From NCBI RefSeq assembly GCF_016593235.1, contig NZ_AP023065.1, positions 682,001 to 746,000 of the forward strand: a DNA stretch of 64,000 nucleotides, written 5' to 3'. This document shows, one piece after another, positions 53,123-60,249 of this stretch. Within the stretch, counting starts at the first letter, position 1; the number at the start of each line of letters is the position of its first letter. The notes beneath the pieces are model-generated. The model saw only the letters and a list, made by a program, of their open reading frames with translations. It searched no databases and was not told the DNA's origin. A program made the translations under genes and the position numbers. This DNA comes from Nitratiruptor sp. YY09-18. Its GTDB lineage: Bacteria; Campylobacterota; Campylobacteria; Campylobacterales; Nitratiruptoraceae.

Positions 53123-53455
53123 ATGTTACGGATATTTTTCCTACTATTTCCTCTTTTTTTGCTTGCTGATTCATTCATAACAAAAGATGAGTATGCAAAA
53201 ATGCTCTATCAAAATCCCAGAGGAATTGGCTGTCACAAGTGTCACGGCATTGAAGGGAGAGGCATGGTAATTGGAAAGTTTAAAAAAGATAGCAATACGA
53301 CAGTAGTACTGCGAGCCCCTGATATTACGAAACTCTCATATAAAAAATTCCAAGAAGCGCTCACCGCTTCAAAACACAAGCTCATGCCGCATTATTTTTT
53401 GACAAAGTATGAGATAAAGATACTCTATTACTATCTCAAAAAAAGAGCAAAGTGA
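53123..53455 (+). CDS. small periplasmic monoheme cytochrome c
   Basis: A 110-residue c-type cytochrome with a signal peptide (about 1-16) and one heme motif C37-H-K-C40-H41. The distal ligand may be the Met of HKLMPHYF (about 91). It has an AAGGTG site; the ATG at 53123 is preferred over the TTG at 53120. It heads a six-gene overlapping operon, meeting the CitE-like gene in a TGATG junction. Such small cytochromes pass electrons to oxidases or dehydrogenases; the partner is not seen here. Confidence 0.85.
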   Translation: MLRIFFLLFPLFLLADSFITKDEYAKMLYQNPRGIGCHKCHGIEGRGMVIGKFKKDSNTTVVLRAPDITKLSYKKFQEALTASKHKLMPHYFLTKYEIKILYYYLKKRAK

Positions 53456-54390
53456 TGCTATTTGACGAAAAATTTATCGAAATAGTGCAAGAGGCAATTG
53501 ATCAAGATAATGAGAACTTTTTCATAAAAGCTCTCTCCCACGCCTCTCCAAGACAAAGAAAAGAGAATTTTTGTGCTCCTATGATGGTCTCAGCGCTCAA
53601 TGCAAAGCATCTCAATCACCTCGATGAGTTTCCCAGTGATGCGGCAATCATCAACCTCGAAGATGGAGTCGCCCCACAAAAAAAGCGTATAGCCCTTCTT
53701 GCTGCATGCTACTTTTTGCAGCATTTACCTCAAAATGCTCCCTATACGATTGTGCGAATTAATCCACTGGATGAGGGTGGAGAAGAGGAGATAGCACTTC
53801 TCAATCGTTTTTTCCCCCACGCTATACGCGTACCAAAAGTAAGATCAAAAGAGGATTTGCAAAGAGCAAGAGAGCTTATAGATGATGCAATAAGCTTGCA
53901 TGCTTCAATTGAGACGAAAGAGGCTTTTGTAAATCTTCAAACATTAGCCACAAGCAAGGCAGAATGCTTCTATCTAGGAATTTTGGATCTGCTTGCAGAT
54001 ATGGGCATACCGCAAAATGTGCTCAAGCTCAGTAACCCCACAATTGATCATATTCTATCAATCTTTTTGCTTCAATCCCTTGCCAATGGCATAAAACCGG
54101 TCTCATTTGTGTATCAAGACTATAAAAATATTGAAGAGTTTACCCAGTGGTGTGAGTATGAGTATGCCATGGGGTATCGTGCCAAGGGAGTGTTGGGACC
54201 AAAGCAGGCTGAAGTGGCTCTAAGAATCTTTAAAACTGTGGATATCCAGAGGGCACGCTATATCAAGAAACGCTTTGAAGCTATGCAAAAGCAGGGAATC
54301 ACGGGTTTTATGGATGAGAAGTATGGATTTATCGATGAGCCAATCTATAAAGATGCTCTCAATATCCTCAAGTCTAAGGGAGAGCTATGA
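53455..54390 (+). CDS. CitE-like HpcH/HpaI aldolase family protein
   Basis: A 311-residue protein of the HpcH/HpaI aldolase/citrate lyase beta family, whose members cleave or join CoA-linked or free acids using Mg2+. It has IINLEDGVAPQKK (about 58-70, with the metal Glu-Asp), YTIVRINPLDEGG (about 96-108) and RVPKVRSKED (about 122-131). The second metal Glu is not obvious: the usual ETA region reads SIETKEAF. No citC, citD, citF or CoA ligase gene is near, so it is not the citrate lyase complex. Its position before an acyltransferase suggests a part in small-molecule synthesis. Confidence 0.8.
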   Translation: MLFDEKFIEIVQEAIDQDNENFFIKALSHASPRQRKENFCAPMMVSALNAKHLNHLDEFPSDAAIINLEDGVAPQKKRIALLAACYFLQHLPQNAPYTIVRINPLDEGGEEEIALLNRFFPHAIRVPKVRSKEDLQRARELIDDAISLHASIETKEAFVNLQTLATSKAECFYLGILDLLADMGIPQNVLKLSNPTIDHILSIFLLQSLANGIKPVSFVYQDYKNIEEFTQWCEYEYAMGYRAKGVLGPKQAEVALRIFKTVDIQRARYIKKRFEAMQKQGITGFMDEKYGFIDEPIYKDALNILKSKGEL

Positions 54391-54998
54391 TTAGATTTTT
54401 TGAAGTTTTGGATGAAGGGTTTTTAGAAGAGATATTTCGTTTTCGCTATGAAGTAGTGGTAGATGAGCTCGGTTTTTTTGATCCCAATGAGTATGAAGGC
54501 AAAAAGGAGCGTGATGAGTGGGATGACTACTCGACACATTTTGTAGCTTTGGATGAAGAGTGCAATATCGTAGCTACCACACGTATTATCCATCACTGTC
54601 CCTTTGCGTATCCTACTGAACGCTATATGCAAATAGATCCATCAATTCAAAAGCTTCTAGAGCTCAAGCGAGATAAATTGAGTGAAATCTCGAGGCTCTT
54701 CATAGCTAAAAATTACCGTAATATGCACGATACTAAAATCATTATAAATGGGTTTATCAAACAGCATACATACTTTACTATGAAAAGATTTGATTTGGAA
54801 TATGCATACAGTGCAATAGAGAGACGCTTTAAAAGATTGCTGCGTATGTATAGAGTCCACTTTGATGCAATTGGTCCAGAGCAAAAGGGGTATGGATCTC
54901 CAAGAATTCCTTGTTTGCTGAGCAGAGAGCGCCTTGGACGCGACAACCCAAATATTATTCAATATTACGAAAAGAAGAAACTATGGTTAGGCGTTTAG
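54387..54998 (+). CDS. N-acyl amino acid synthase-like (LuxI/FeeM-fold) acyltransferase
   Basis: A 203-residue protein related to FeeM and to the PEP-CTERM/exosortase-associated acyltransferases, in the same GNAT-like fold as LuxI. It has FRFRYEVVVDELGFFDP (about 17-33), a match to the LuxI-type FxxRxxVFxxRL region, THFVALDEECNIVATTRII (about 51-69) and the RLFIAKNYR segment (about 106-114). Known relatives link a fatty acyl group from acyl carrier protein to an amino acid. No exosortase is seen here. The gene overlaps citE by 4 nt and the TonB receptor by 16 nt. The product is unknown. Confidence 0.75.
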   Translation: MIRFFEVLDEGFLEEIFRFRYEVVVDELGFFDPNEYEGKKERDEWDDYSTHFVALDEECNIVATTRIIHHCPFAYPTERYMQIDPSIQKLLELKRDKLSEISRLFIAKNYRNMHDTKIIINGFIKQHTYFTMKRFDLEYAYSAIERRFKRLLRMYRVHFDAIGPEQKGYGSPRIPCLLSRERLGRDNPNIIQYYEKKKLWLGV

Positions 54999-57001
54999 TA
55001 GTAAGTTTATTAGCTACATGTACTCTCTTTGGAGCTGATCATACACAGAGTCTTTTTGACGAGTTGCAAACATTTTCAAATCTTGCTAAAGAGACCAAAG
55101 AGACCGAGTTTTATCAACCACACATCATCTCAGTCTACAAAGGAAAGGATCTTGAGAAGGTTGGAGCCCAAAATCTCATGCAGGCTCTGTGGCTTGTGCC
55201 AGGGCTTGATATCTATGGGGATAATCTTGATATAAAAACTGCAATTTTTAGAGGGTCTAATCCCTTTGCGTATGGGCAATCAAAGCTCTTCATAGATGGT
55301 GTATTAGTCAATGATGTAATGTTTGATAGCTACAGCACATTTTTGGATATGCCAATAGAGCTTATTAAACGTATAGAGGTGATCAGGGGTCCTGGCAGCA
55401 AAGCAGAAGGCTACAATGCATATGCTGGTTCAATCTATGTAATAACTTATGCAGAAGATGATGATGGTGGTAAGGTTTTTGCCAAGAGGGGCTCCTTTCG
55501 TTATCGTTCCATCGGCTTTTATAAAAAGTGGAAGATTGATGATTTTCATCTCTATACTGAAGGGTATTGGCAAAAAGATCATAAAGCCCTCAAGGCTGGT
55601 CCAGACTCTTTGGCTACAGGAGTATGGGGAGCGGATAATATTGCTTTAGCTAAAAGTGGCAAAGTTCCACTATGGCTCGATAACTACTCATTTGCACTTT
55701 ATGGAGATTATAAAGAGATCCATTTCAAACTACGTACTAACCGTCATAAAAAAGGTGCAGCGTATGGACTAAGCTTTATGCTTCCCCAAAGGGACGATTT
55801 TATCTATACTCCTTCACTCATTGGTGAAATCAACTACAAAAAATCTCTTGGAAAATATAATCTCGCTTTGCAAATAGGTCGCAAGTATGATAGTTTCAAA
55901 AATGATCTCGATGTAGCACCTCCAGGCTTTACATATCATGTAGGTGGACAAGAAGTTGTCTTTGCTGATGGTTTTCATGGTCTTTATGAAGCAAAACAGC
56001 GTACAGACTATGCAAAAGTAGAATATGCTTATATTCCATCTTCTCGTATGACCCTCAAAAGTGGTTTACTTCTCACAAAAGAGAAGACCTACAAAGTCAA
56101 AACTATCACGAACAGCCTCGATGGATCTGGTGCAGTAGTCGACTACTCTGTAATCCGGCCATTTCTCAATCCTCATGCTAAGAGAGTGAGACAAATATAC
56201 TATCTTAGTGCTGATTTTATGATAGATTCTCAGTGGAGTCTCTATACAGGAATAAACTATGAAAAGATCATTGGCAAATACGATGTAGTCAATCCAAGGC
56301 TCTGTGTGGTCTATTGGATTGATGATGAAAATATTCTCAAATTCTTAGCAAGCAGATCCAATCGTGATCCATCCTGGCAAGAGATGTTTACCATCAACAA
56401 TACTACTCGCGTGGGCAATCCTAACCTTGATCCAGAGCGTGTGACAGCATTTGAGATCAACTATATTAAAAAGCTAAGTACTGACGACTTCTTTCAAGGA
56501 ACAATCTTCTATCTTAAAAATAGTGATGTCATTTCAAATATTAATCCACAAAGAGAGTTTCACAATAGCTGTAAGAACAGTATCTATGGATTAGAGCTTG
56601 AACTGCGTAAGAATATAACCAACTCTTTGCAGCTCTATGCAAACTACTCATATGTATATGGAAAAGATGATCATTCGCATCCAATAGATAACGTAGCAAA
56701 CCATATGGCAAAGATTTATCTGCTCAAAAATATAGATGTGCATCTGGATATGAGTATTATGAGTAGATACATTGGAGCAAAGAGGAGAGTATATTACGAC
56801 AATCGTCCAAAACTTAATGATTATATTGATACAGATATTGCTATGCGCTACAAATATGATCAAAACTTAGAATTCTCATTTGTAGTGAAAAATATTTTTG
56901 ATAACGATATGCGCTTCCCATCCAAACCATATACATATGAAAAAGATTATCCTATCACTGATGGGCGCACATTCATGATAGTGTTGAGGGGTACGTTTTG
57001 A
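54983..57001 (+). CDS. TonB-dependent outer-membrane receptor
   Basis: A 672-residue outer-membrane receptor with a signal peptide (about 1-19), a plug domain (about 45-170) and a beta-barrel ending in Phe (VLRGTF). The plug has the characteristic NLMQALWLVPGLDIYG (about 72-87), IFRGSNPF, LFIDGVLVNDV and VIRGPGSKAEGYNAYAG. There is no clear TonB-box consensus. I take the ATG at 54983, overlapping the acyltransferase end by 16 nt. The ligand is unknown; siderophores, metals, cobalamin or a product of the upstream enzymes are all open. The stop overlaps the next start. Confidence 0.9.
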   Translation: MVRRLVVSLLATCTLFGADHTQSLFDELQTFSNLAKETKETEFYQPHIISVYKGKDLEKVGAQNLMQALWLVPGLDIYGDNLDIKTAIFRGSNPFAYGQSKLFIDGVLVNDVMFDSYSTFLDMPIELIKRIEVIRGPGSKAEGYNAYAGSIYVITYAEDDDGGKVFAKRGSFRYRSIGFYKKWKIDDFHLYTEGYWQKDHKALKAGPDSLATGVWGADNIALAKSGKVPLWLDNYSFALYGDYKEIHFKLRTNRHKKGAAYGLSFMLPQRDDFIYTPSLIGEINYKKSLGKYNLALQIGRKYDSFKNDLDVAPPGFTYHVGGQEVVFADGFHGLYEAKQRTDYAKVEYAYIPSSRMTLKSGLLLTKEKTYKVKTITNSLDGSGAVVDYSVIRPFLNPHAKRVRQIYYLSADFMIDSQWSLYTGINYEKIIGKYDVVNPRLCVVYWIDDENILKFLASRSNRDPSWQEMFTINNTTRVGNPNLDPERVTAFEINYIKKLSTDDFFQGTIFYLKNSDVISNINPQREFHNSCKNSIYGLELELRKNITNSLQLYANYSYVYGKDDHSHPIDNVANHMAKIYLLKNIDVHLDMSIMSRYIGAKRRVYYDNRPKLNDYIDTDIAMRYKYDQNLEFSFVVKNIFDNDMRFPSKPYTYEKDYPITDGRTFMIVLRGTF

Positions 57002-57546
57002 TACGGCTGATTTTGGTTTTGATAGTTATTTTTTTGGAACTTAGAGCATATGAATACAATGACTTCTTGCTTCATACCCAAATTTCAATCTATCCCAAAC
57101 TCCTCGCCTTTGATAAAAATCTCGGAAAAAATATCAAAGATGAAAAGATCGATTTTTACATCATTTATGCTTCCATAGACGAGCTTGTTGCACAAAAATT
57201 ACAATCTGCTATTAGTCAAAAATTTGATGCTATTCATGGGTATCCCCTCCAGGTGCATCTGCTAAAAGTTAATGAGGCTTTAGCCGATAAGAGATTGTAT
57301 GAGTATGTAGATGCAATCTATCTCTTGAAAATTGATGAAGCCAAGGCCAAGGAGTTGGCTATGAAAATAGCTAAACACAATGTTTACTCGTTTGTTTACG
57401 ATAAAAAGGATCTTCTCTATGGATATCTCTTTGCGATTGCCATCGAGCGGAGTGTAACAATATATATAAATAAAAAAGTTTTACAGCAAAACGATTTTGA
57501 TTTTATTACAGCTCTTTTTGAAAACTCCAAAATAGTTGCACCATGA
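56998..57546 (+). CDS. YfiR/DUF4154-like periplasmic protein
   Basis: A 182-residue protein with a short signal peptide and a small alpha/beta domain. It resembles YfiR-type (DUF4154) proteins, which bind and restrain the periplasmic region of a diguanylate cyclase. Its features are weak: YPKLLAFDKNL (about 32-42), IYASIDELVAQKL, and a final region of basic and hydrophobic residues. The start is TTG at 56998 behind GAGGGG. It is between a TonB receptor and a membrane GGDEF-EAL gene and overlaps both by 4 nt. No cysteines of the usual YfiR type are seen, so the call rests partly on position. Confidence 0.6.
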   Translation: MIRLILVLIVIFLELRAYEYNDFLLHTQISIYPKLLAFDKNLGKNIKDEKIDFYIIYASIDELVAQKLQSAISQKFDAIHGYPLQVHLLKVNEALADKRLYEYVDAIYLLKIDEAKAKELAMKIAKHNVYSFVYDKKDLLYGYLFAIAIERSVTIYINKKVLQQNDFDFITALFENSKIVAP

Positions 57547-59492
57547 AAAAAATAAGCTCTTCTCTTTCTAAGCGTATACTCTTCTATCTCTCCATTCTCT
57601 CTATAGCTCTCATTATATCTATCTTCTATGCTTTTGAAGAGGCGGGGAAAAACGCTTTTAAGAAAATGGAAGAAGAAAAAGCCCAGGTCATTATCGATAC
57701 TATCTTACCTAGTGTAGCTATGAATCTCTATCTTGGCTTTGATAATAAAGTCAAAGATATCATTACAAATATCCTCAAAACCAACAAGAATATCCTTGGA
57801 ATTACGATCATCAATCATGGCAAAGTGGTCTCAAGCAGTATCAAGCGAAAAATTGGATCGCAAAACTATTTCATTTTTACACGAGAAATAAAAGAGCCAA
57901 ATGCAGAGAATTCTCTTGGACGTATGCATGTAATTTACTCCTATGAGCATTTTAACACCCTTATGGATAAATACTCCAAGCTCTTGTGGCAGTTTCTCAT
58001 AGGTATTATATTGGTGATGGTGCTTTTTGGTATCTATATTGATAGACTTCTCAATCCTCTCAGACGTATTACAAATGAGTTGCTTCACTATTCTCCCAAA
58101 AAGCTCTTTAAGTTCAATCTCAAAGATAGAGATGATGAGATTGGCGCAATTGCCTCAGCTCTTGAAACTATGCAAGAGCGTATCGTCGAGTATGCTAGAA
58201 ACCAAGAGAATGTCAATGCACTCTTGGAGCAAAAAGTCAAAGAAAAGACCCAGGAGCTTAAAAATAGGCTCTATATCGATAGCCTTACTGGCCTTCCCAA
58301 TAGATTTAAGCTCAGTGATGATATCGAAAAATTTGATGAGATCGGCCTTGTAGTACTCAATATCGATAATTTTAAGGAGATCAACGACTTTTTTGGTCAT
58401 GAAATCGGTGACAAGATCCTCAAAGATTTTGCTCAAAAAATTCACAAACTCTTTAAAAGCGGCAACCCAAAATTTTATAGACTCTCAGGAGATGAGTTTG
58501 CACTTCTCTTTAGCGGAAAGATGAGCAAGAGTGATATAGAGCATTTTTTAAATATTTTTGCCGAAAAACTAGAGCAGATGATTTTTTTCCATGGAGATAA
58601 AGAGCTAGCACTCCATGTAACTATGGGAGCAGCACTTCAAAAAGAGGGAGCGCTCGAAAAAGCAGATATTGCACTGAAAAAAGCAAGGCAAAAGCGTAAA
58701 CTCTATGAGATCTACTATGATGAAGATAAAGAGGTAGAGCAGCAGTACAAAAACAACATCGAGTGGATCAAGAAACTCAAAAAATCGATTGAACTTGAGC
58801 GTGTTGTGCCATTTTTTCAGCCAATTGTCCATGTCGATACAAAAAGGCCTAAAGGGTATGAGTGTCTCATGCGCATCATTGATGATGATGGATCTATGGT
58901 CTCACCAGTGCACTTTTTGGATATTGCCAAAAAGAGCCGCTACTACTATAAGCTTACTGAAATTATGATCGAAAAGAGTTGTGAGTATTTTGAAAATTCA
59001 AGATGCAGTTTCTCTATCAATCTCTCTATCCTAGATATTCTCAATACCGATATTGTTCAAATTCTCAAAAACGCCTTGAAAAAATATAGTGTCAAAGATC
59101 GTCTCATTTTAGAGATAGTAGAATCTGAAGGAATTGAGAACTATGATGTAATCCACGTGTTTCTCCATGAGATGAAAGAGCTTGGATGCCAGGTGGCAAT
59201 TGATGATTTTGGCACAGGCTACTCTAATTTTGAGCATATTCTCAAGCTTCCCATAGATTACATCAAAATCGATGGCTCATTGATTAAAAATATCACTACT
59301 AACAAAGATGCAGAGCTTATTGTCTCGACTATTGTAGACTTTGCCAAGAAGAAACATATCAAAACAGTATCAGAATTTGTAAGTAGCGAAGAGATTTACA
59401 ATAAAGTCAAAGAGTTAGGTGTCGATTTTGCACAAGGCTACTACTTTTCACCTCCGAAGCAGTTCGTGCCAAAAGAGTGTATCAGTATATGA
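57543..59492 (+). CDS. membrane GGDEF-EAL cyclic-di-GMP protein
   Basis: A 649-residue protein with two spans (about 10-30 and 149-167) around a periplasmic sensor domain (about 31-148). A HAMP-like linker (168-220), a coiled coil, GGDEF (about 240-395) and EAL (about 415-640) domains follow. The GGDEF motif is SGDEF (315-319) and the EAL motif is ECL (440-442). Phosphodiesterase residues are otherwise largely kept: SINLS, LEIVES, DDFGTGYSN (554-562) and IKIDGS. Its activity could be synthesis, hydrolysis or both. The YfiR-like protein encoded just upstream would be its periplasmic regulator. Confidence 0.92.
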   Translation: MKKISSSLSKRILFYLSILSIALIISIFYAFEEAGKNAFKKMEEEKAQVIIDTILPSVAMNLYLGFDNKVKDIITNILKTNKNILGITIINHGKVVSSSIKRKIGSQNYFIFTREIKEPNAENSLGRMHVIYSYEHFNTLMDKYSKLLWQFLIGIILVMVLFGIYIDRLLNPLRRITNELLHYSPKKLFKFNLKDRDDEIGAIASALETMQERIVEYARNQENVNALLEQKVKEKTQELKNRLYIDSLTGLPNRFKLSDDIEKFDEIGLVVLNIDNFKEINDFFGHEIGDKILKDFAQKIHKLFKSGNPKFYRLSGDEFALLFSGKMSKSDIEHFLNIFAEKLEQMIFFHGDKELALHVTMGAALQKEGALEKADIALKKARQKRKLYEIYYDEDKEVEQQYKNNIEWIKKLKKSIELERVVPFFQPIVHVDTKRPKGYECLMRIIDDDGSMVSPVHFLDIAKKSRYYYKLTEIMIEKSCEYFENSRCSFSINLSILDILNTDIVQILKNALKKYSVKDRLILEIVESEGIENYDVIHVFLHEMKELGCQVAIDDFGTGYSNFEHILKLPIDYIKIDGSLIKNITTNKDAELIVSTIVDFAKKKHIKTVSEFVSSEEIYNKVKELGVDFAQGYYFSPPKQFVPKECISI

Positions 59493-60249
59493 TAGAGTAG
59501 CGCACTTTTATGCGAATGAGGGTAGTTTGTGATGGAAGAGGGTAGTCTTTGTAGGCAGTTTTGATAGTTTCTAGGGAGTTTTCATCAAGCACTTCAAATC
59601 CGCTCGATTGTATAATATGTAAATCTGTAATATCCCCATTTGGATGGAGATAAAACTCTACTATATTTGTGCCCTCTTGCTTTGTTTTTGCTGCAATGTA
59701 GGGGTAGCCTCTAAGATAGAGATACTTTTGTGTAATGAGACCGATTTTATCGAGATTGTCTTTAATGAATTCGCGCTGGGTCTTTGTAAAGGTCTCAAAC
59801 TTATCTTTATAAAGACGAGAGATATTTTTGGGAATAGCTATCTTCTTTTGAGGGTGCGATTTTTTTGCAAAAATTTGACTTAGACTTGGTAAGGCTTCGT
59901 GTGAAGATTTTGAAGCTCTTTTTTTGGCCACTCTCTTTTTTTTAATGCTTCTCTTTTTTAAAATCCGCACTCTCTTTTTGGCTCTTTTATTTACGCCTCT
60001 TTTTGCTATCTTGACAACCTTTTGCGGTTGTGCAATTTGCTGTTTTTTTGTAGCCTTTTTCTCTTTAATTAACGATTTTTTCATAGCTGGAGGCTGGGGT
60101 TTGAGCAGGCGTACTGAGCCTAGTGAGAGTGGATGGCGTTCTGGAAGTTTTCTATATTCTTGTTTTGGATGTAAATCGAGTGAAATTGCCAAAAAGAGGA
60201 GAATATAGAGAACGAGAGTAATAAAAAATGAGATGACTAATCTATGCAT
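59482..60249 (-). CDS. TonB-like energy transducer
   Basis: A 255-residue protein with one N-terminal span (about 7-25) and a long Lys/Arg/Pro-rich linker (about 35-130, with many KK and RVAKKRASK repeats). A C-terminal TonB domain (about 165-255) includes YPYIAAKTKQEGTNIVEFYLHPNG and the IIQSSGFEVLDE region. TonB links the proton gradient, through ExbB and ExbD, to outer-membrane receptors. ExbB and ExbD are not adjacent. It converges on the GGDEF-EAL gene with an 11-nt overlap, so its neighbour receptor at 54983 is a likely client. Confidence 0.85.
   Translation of the reverse strand: MHRLVISFFITLVLYILLFLAISLDLHPKQEYRKLPERHPLSLGSVRLLKPQPPAMKKSLIKEKKATKKQQIAQPQKVVKIAKRGVNKRAKKRVRILKKRSIKKKRVAKKRASKSSHEALPSLSQIFAKKSHPQKKIAIPKNISRLYKDKFETFTKTQREFIKDNLDKIGLITQKYLYLRGYPYIAAKTKQEGTNIVEFYLHPNGDITDLHIIQSSGFEVLDENSLETIKTAYKDYPLPSQTTLIRIKVRYSIIY

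Follow-up and report, generated by a model that had tools for sequence, protein, structure and literature searches.

A conserved cassette of an acyltransferase, a TonB-dependent receptor, a YfiR-fold protein and a GGDEF-EAL protein in Campylobacterota, with a possible make-and-sense role

Six consecutive plus-strand genes with overlapping ends lie in the window, the 64,000-nucleotide stretch of Nitratiruptor sp. YY09-18 DNA that was analysed (G000:C1:682001-746000; source genome 1.76 Mb). An earlier note on this DNA had proposed that they form one system in which the first enzymes make or modify a small molecule, a receptor recovers it and a YfiR-like/GGDEF-EAL pair reports its presence through cyclic-di-GMP. 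This raises two questions: which of the six genes belong together, and what might their products do? The genes, here called g1 to g6, and the gene that follows them are as follows.

g1, 53123..53455, plus strand: small c-type cytochrome with a CHKCH haem motif, its cytochrome c matches being weak only; ancestral folD-side neighbour outside the core cassette (folD-adjacent without the cassette in loci L135, L136, L137, L140 and L144)
g2, 53455..54390, plus strand: HpcH/HpaI (CitE-like) lyase, 67 bits; ancestral neighbour
g3, 54387..54998, plus strand: predicted LuxI/FeeM-fold acyltransferase of the N-acyl synthase type, from Pfam matches and an AF2 model; core cassette
g4, 54983..57001, plus strand: TonB-dependent receptor with plug and barrel; core cassette
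g5, 56998..57546, plus strand: predicted YfiR-fold periplasmic protein with a TTG start, from its fold and the PF13689 matches of its relatives; core cassette
g6, 57543..59492, plus strand: membrane protein having a periplasmic input domain, HAMP, GGDEF (SGDEF motif) and EAL; core cassette
tonB, 59482..60249, minus strand: convergent; member of an ancestral folD-g1-g2-tonB-hemL neighbourhood

All of these open reading frames and their junctions read as the earlier note had described them. The g1/g2 junction is TGATG (53453-53457), the g2/g3 junction ATGA (54387-54390), the g4/g5 junction TTGA (56998-57001) and the g5/g6 junction ATGA (57543-57546), and g3 and g4 overlap by 16 nt (54983-54998). 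The tonB gene does converge on the operon end, where it overlaps the 3' end of g6 by 11 bp.

The g3-g6 cassette and the g1-g2 pair

Genes g3 to g6 are a genuine conserved unit in Campylobacterota. In a sample of 249 genomes of this phylum, g3 was present in 11 and the g5 type in 19. Of the 11 genomes with g3, 10 had g3, g4 and g5 consecutively on one strand, and in 10 a receptor of the g4 subfamily adjoined g3. The g3 of G073 was solitary, without cassette partners; in G175 the g6-type gene was divergent and on the opposite side of the cassette, and in G056 g6 was broken into two open reading frames. Co-occurrence of g3 with the g4-type receptor subfamily gave a P of about 3e-15 across the sampled genomes and of about 4e-8 within the g2-bearing genomes only, the genomes being non-independent in both cases. 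We also scanned genome contigs with a single search pattern, the g3 alignment, built from Campylobacterota cassette proteins. The scan returned 29 loci, all from Campylobacterota or bacterial MAGs, a set that includes near relatives of one another and in which the contigs of L067 and L082 are equal in length to those of G185 and G198 of the 249-genome sample. At L066 and L077 the contig ends just past g3. The order g3-g4-g5 was kept in 26 of the 27 informative loci, the sole one with g3 but without g4-g5 alongside being L085, and g6 came next in all 24 loci whose contigs extend that far. Junctions across the 27 loci were mostly short gaps or overlaps, some of the overlaps hinging on the start codon chosen by the ORF caller. 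The scattering of genes in relatives that the earlier note had named as counter-evidence does not hold for g3-g6. Its chromosomal location differs among Nitratiruptor, Sulfurimonas, Hydrogenimonas and Arcobacteraceae, where the cassette lies as a block, and in four Sulfurimonas loci (L065, L071, L075 and L076) it lies on the opposite side of the folD block. The carriers are vent and sediment relatives of Campylobacter.

The g1-g2 pair is an ancestral folD-side pair, separate from the cassette. Where the cassette is absent, folD-g1-g2-tonB-hemL is contiguous (L137, L140 and L144, in other families), and g2 is convergent with tonB in cassette-free genomes. Two congeners (G029 and G035; loci L135 and L136) carry g1-g2 without g3-g6, and there the gap between g2 and tonB holds minus-strand genes with complex-I/hydrogenase-like domains. 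In the phylum sample, g2 was present in 53 of the 249 genomes, including all 11 with g3; since 42 carry g2 without g3, the co-occurrence of the two genes tracks lineage. At all nine Nitratiruptor-family loci g1-g2 lie immediately 5' of g3, and the gap between g2 and the cassette is only -8 to 84 nt, which makes co-transcription of g1-g2 with the cassette plausible, and probable, in that family. Congeners and members of other families keep g1-g2 without g3-g6, so the joining of all six genes is a juxtaposition restricted to the Nitratiruptor family. The earlier idea of one six-gene system therefore stands for g3-g6 and falls for g1-g2, and the search for the six-gene order in other Campylobacterota that the note had suggested finds it in this family only; elsewhere the cassette does not adjoin g1-g2.

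Predicted functions of the cassette proteins

The g3 protein scored above the Pfam cut-offs of Acetyltransf_5 (48.7 bits) and Autoind_synth (29.8 bits); against TIGR03694 it scored 83.2 bits, below the curated cut-off of 111.95 bits. Its AF2 model (mean pLDDT 93.3) matched TofI (Z 19.4), LasI (18.5), BjaI (17.7) and FeeM (17.5) better than the top plain GNAT (16.6). Residues R20, D43, D46, E100, S102 and R103 were invariant in 37 homologues and R66 was kept in 36, and the ExSR motif aligns with RpaI. With two Pfam cut-offs passed, fold scores above those of GNATs and a conserved active site, the LuxI-fold acyltransferase label first given to g3 is upheld, and the protein is probably a LuxI/FeeM-type enzyme of the N-acyl synthase type. 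The candidate aromatic positions 24, 30 and 80, assigned without superposition, vary among homologues; the corresponding SAM-pocket aromatics of AHL synthases we take to be F28, W34 and F82 of EsaI. N-acyl amides are the reported products of PF13444 relatives (PMC9762135), and in Nas354 the glutamate equivalent to that of g3 is catalytic and required (PMC4897644). The g3 protein is about 200 aa long, and its domain search returned no PilZ domain. Two candidate partners were disfavoured by their narrow distribution. Exosortase (PF09721) matched above cut-off in only two of the 11 g3 genomes, G000, where the match contains TGA, and G013, and was not found above cut-off in the other nine. A carboxyl methyltransferase (LCM) adjoins g3 only in L079 and L085 and is absent from 13 genomes.

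Plug and barrel domains were found in g4, in line with its designation as a TonB receptor, and the nearest solved relatives of its plug are BtuB and Cir. We built a tree of 49 receptors, 34 of them g3-linked. All 34 g3-linked receptors, including g4, fell in one clade of 37 (support 100/100), and the other 12 YfiR-paired receptors fell outside it. Three members of this clade have no adjacent g3 (L053, L057 and L058), L057 starting at a contig end. The g3-linkage label changed 3 times on the tree versus 13.1 times with shuffled labels, a comparison limited by the relatedness of the rows. This pattern fits one gain of g3 and a few losses. Most receptor-YfiR pairs in the phylum are without g3.

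For g5, sequence search alone did not bear out the YfiR-like label of the earlier note: the protein had no Pfam match, and YfiR appeared only at E=0.025. The label is recovered through its relatives and its predicted fold. PF13689 matched 6 of 19 g5 relatives (best 6e-8), though not the g5 of the window itself. The AF2 model (mean pLDDT 93.4) had P. aeruginosa YfiR as its top Foldseek match (E 2.5e-7; Z 15.1), with single-lobe substrate-binding folds scoring little below YfiR. Together, the model and the relatives support g5 as a YfiR-type protein.

HAMP, GGDEF and EAL domains were found in g6, as its description as a GGDEF-EAL protein had implied. The EAL catalytic motifs (E440, the NLS asparagine, E523, DD, the K574 region, E609 and Q631) are kept in 32 of 32 aligned g6-type proteins, and the cyclase motif across the 32 is mostly SGDEF. 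The EAL domain of g6 is predicted to be an intact phosphodiesterase. The first ~235 residues of g6 are common to YfiR-adjacent kinase, GGDEF and GGDEF-EAL proteins (E 1e-9 to 1e-46). Three of four comparison proteins gave no match to this input domain, and the one that matched itself bears the domain. Searched by sequence against solved structures, the input domain gave no credible match and no YfiN periplasmic domain.

A possible make-and-sense circuit and its alternatives

We propose that g3-g6 may be a self-contained make-and-sense circuit onto cyclic-di-GMP, a reading to which we give slightly less than an even chance. In such a circuit, g3 would move the fatty acyl group of acyl-ACP or acyl-CoA to a small amine, such as an amino acid or homoserine-lactone precursor, and the resulting N-acyl amphiphile would exit the cell. 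At the outer membrane g4 would bind this product, or its complex or variant, and its occupancy would be relayed in the periplasm to g5. g5 would then dock on the input domain of g6 and set its cyclic-di-GMP activity, most likely via the EAL phosphodiesterase. The acyl product, its export, contact between receptor and YfiR and the direction of the output are proposals, and from linkage alone we infer that the ligand of g4 could be the product of g3. On the assumption of comparable evolutionary rates, receptor and YfiR-like distances were correlated when EAL-domain distances were controlled for (partial r 0.66, p 0.002), those of g3 and the receptor weakly so (partial r 0.30, p 0.012), and those of the receptor and the g6 input domain were uncorrelated (0.13, p 0.17). 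A check of 13 genomes gave no LuxR autoinducer-binding domain (Autoind_bind), and the simplest reading is therefore a synthase, a surface receptor, a periplasmic relay and a cyclic-di-GMP enzyme. That this amounts to LuxR-independent quorum-type self-sensing of a cell-made N-acyl compound, with a TonB-dependent receptor detecting it from outside and a YfiR-fold protein passing the signal on to a GGDEF-EAL enzyme, we suggest tentatively, thinking it rather likelier to be wrong than right. No exporter gene accompanies the cassette at the loci examined. An AcrB-type pump 5' of g3 in Hydrogenimonas was rejected as the exporter because orthologs occur in the g3-less G124 and elsewhere in G000.

The same genes could be read differently. 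The receptor, g5 and g6 might sense an environmental ligand, and the N-acyl surfactant or lipid made by g3 might be part of the response, in motility or attachment, with co-regulation as the only link. Surface activity is a property of N-acyl amino acids, and g3 is missing from most receptor-YfiR-output modules of the phylum. NAS-PilZ fusions also suggest that cyclic-di-GMP acts on N-acyl synthases (PMC4897644). We nonetheless consider this reading unlikely, while leaving it a sizeable share of probability: g3 is the leading gene of the cassette and goes with a single receptor subfamily rather than with an output type, and its protein is about 200 aa long with no PilZ domain reported. A role in acquisition, with g3 making an acylated metal-binding compound of the amphiphilic siderophore type, g4 recovering it and YfiR/g6 reporting on it, is improbable in our judgement. 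TonB-dependent receptors often import metal complexes, and the kinship of the g4 plug with BtuB and Cir agrees with such a role; yet an N-acyl amino acid by itself chelates poorly and no further siderophore biosynthesis gene accompanies the cassette. A crude consensus scan 5' of g1 and g3 also gave no Fur-box-like site above shuffled sequence, and Fur regulation of these genes was rejected on this result.

Very improbable, finally, is a single six-gene pathway in which the cytochrome and the CitE-like lyase help to make the molecule. The tight placement of g1-g2 directly 5' of g3 throughout the Nitratiruptor family and the presence of g2 in every sampled g3 genome speak for it. Against it, g1-g2 occur without the cassette in two members of the same genus (G029 and G035) as well as at L137, L140 and L144, the cassette lies away from them outside that family, and the lineage effect seen in the 42 genomes with g2 alone accounts for the co-occurrence. 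If the make-and-sense circuit were correct, these chemolithotrophs would possess an acyl-signal pathway without LuxR, read at the cell surface directly into cyclic-di-GMP. It would also supply the first candidate ligand type for the receptor-YfiR modules of the phylum, with their kinase, cyclase and phosphodiesterase outputs.

Relation to known systems

The earlier note knew of no described system with these parts, and in the open-access literature, covered mainly by titles and abstracts, we likewise found no description of the receptor-YfiR-acyltransferase combination; the few papers there that mention both YfiR and TonB-dependent receptors are, by title and abstract, not on such a system. 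Already known are the modularity of YfiR (PMC3375315), the N-acyl synthases and, from PMC4897644, a link to cyclic-di-GMP by fusion.

As in YfiBNR of P. aeruginosa, a YfiR-fold periplasmic protein is encoded beside an inner-membrane HAMP-GGDEF protein. Unlike YfiBNR, the cassette has a TonB-dependent receptor in place of the YfiB lipoprotein, with no YfiB gene in the unit, it co-encodes an acyltransferase, and the g5 of the window is without cysteines. Malone 2012 (PMC3375315) described divergent YfiR-YfiN systems that lack yfiB and have a GGDEF-EAL or a kinase as output. The cassette shares with LuxI/LuxR quorum sensing the LuxI-type fold of g3 and its conserved R, D, D, R, E and R, but the 13 genomes checked gave no match to the autoinducer-binding domain of LuxR, and detection is proposed to come from outside, via a TonB-dependent receptor onto cyclic-di-GMP. 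The N-acyl amino acid and amide synthases (FeeM, PF13444, TIGR03694) resemble g3 in fold, family match and the position of the catalytic glutamate (PMC4897644, PMC9762135); in contrast to them, g3 lies within a receptor-cyclic-di-GMP operon. It also differs from the exosortase-linked TIGR03694 members in scoring below the cut-off and in that 9 of the 11 genomes with g3 gave no match to exosortase. The NAS-PilZ fusions Nas343 and Nas354 likewise link N-acyl amino acid synthesis to cyclic-di-GMP (PMC4897644). There, enzyme and messenger-binding domain form one protein, whereas the cassette has a separate chain of receptor, YfiR-fold protein and GGDEF-EAL protein.

The interval between g2 and tonB

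In the window, the interval between the CitE-like lyase gene (g2) and tonB is occupied by the g3-g6 cassette (LuxI/FeeM-fold acyltransferase, TonB-dependent receptor, YfiR-like protein and HAMP-GGDEF-EAL protein). Complex-I/group-4-hydrogenase-like genes lie there in two genomes of the same genus (L135:5826-12482 in G029 and L136:5780-12436 in G035); an MCP gene is found at locus L139 and ~11 kb of DNA at L142. The interval looks like a variable insertion slot.

A methyltransferase gene beside g3, and exosortase matches

A gene of the leucine-carboxyl-methyltransferase family (PF04072) is located immediately 5' of g3 at L079:6178-7065 and L085:8102-8989; none was detected in the 13 other genomes searched. 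This arrangement hints that the acyl product may be carboxyl-methylated in the L079/L085 clade. Exosortase family (PF09721) matches above cut-off were observed in only two of the 11 g3-bearing genomes, that of the window (G000:C1:1727289-1727771, with an internal TGA) and G013 (G013:C1:1629535-1629975).

Variants of g6 and modules lacking g3

The g6 gene of G056 is broken into two ORFs of 240 and 388 aa (L044:8211-10160), and in G175 a g6-type GGDEF-EAL gene is located upstream of g3 in divergent orientation, not after g5 (L051:9170-11128). In receptor/YfiR-like modules without g3 (L152, L151, L148, L055, L056 and L054), the outputs are GGDEF-only or histidine-kinase proteins with the same periplasmic input domain as g6.
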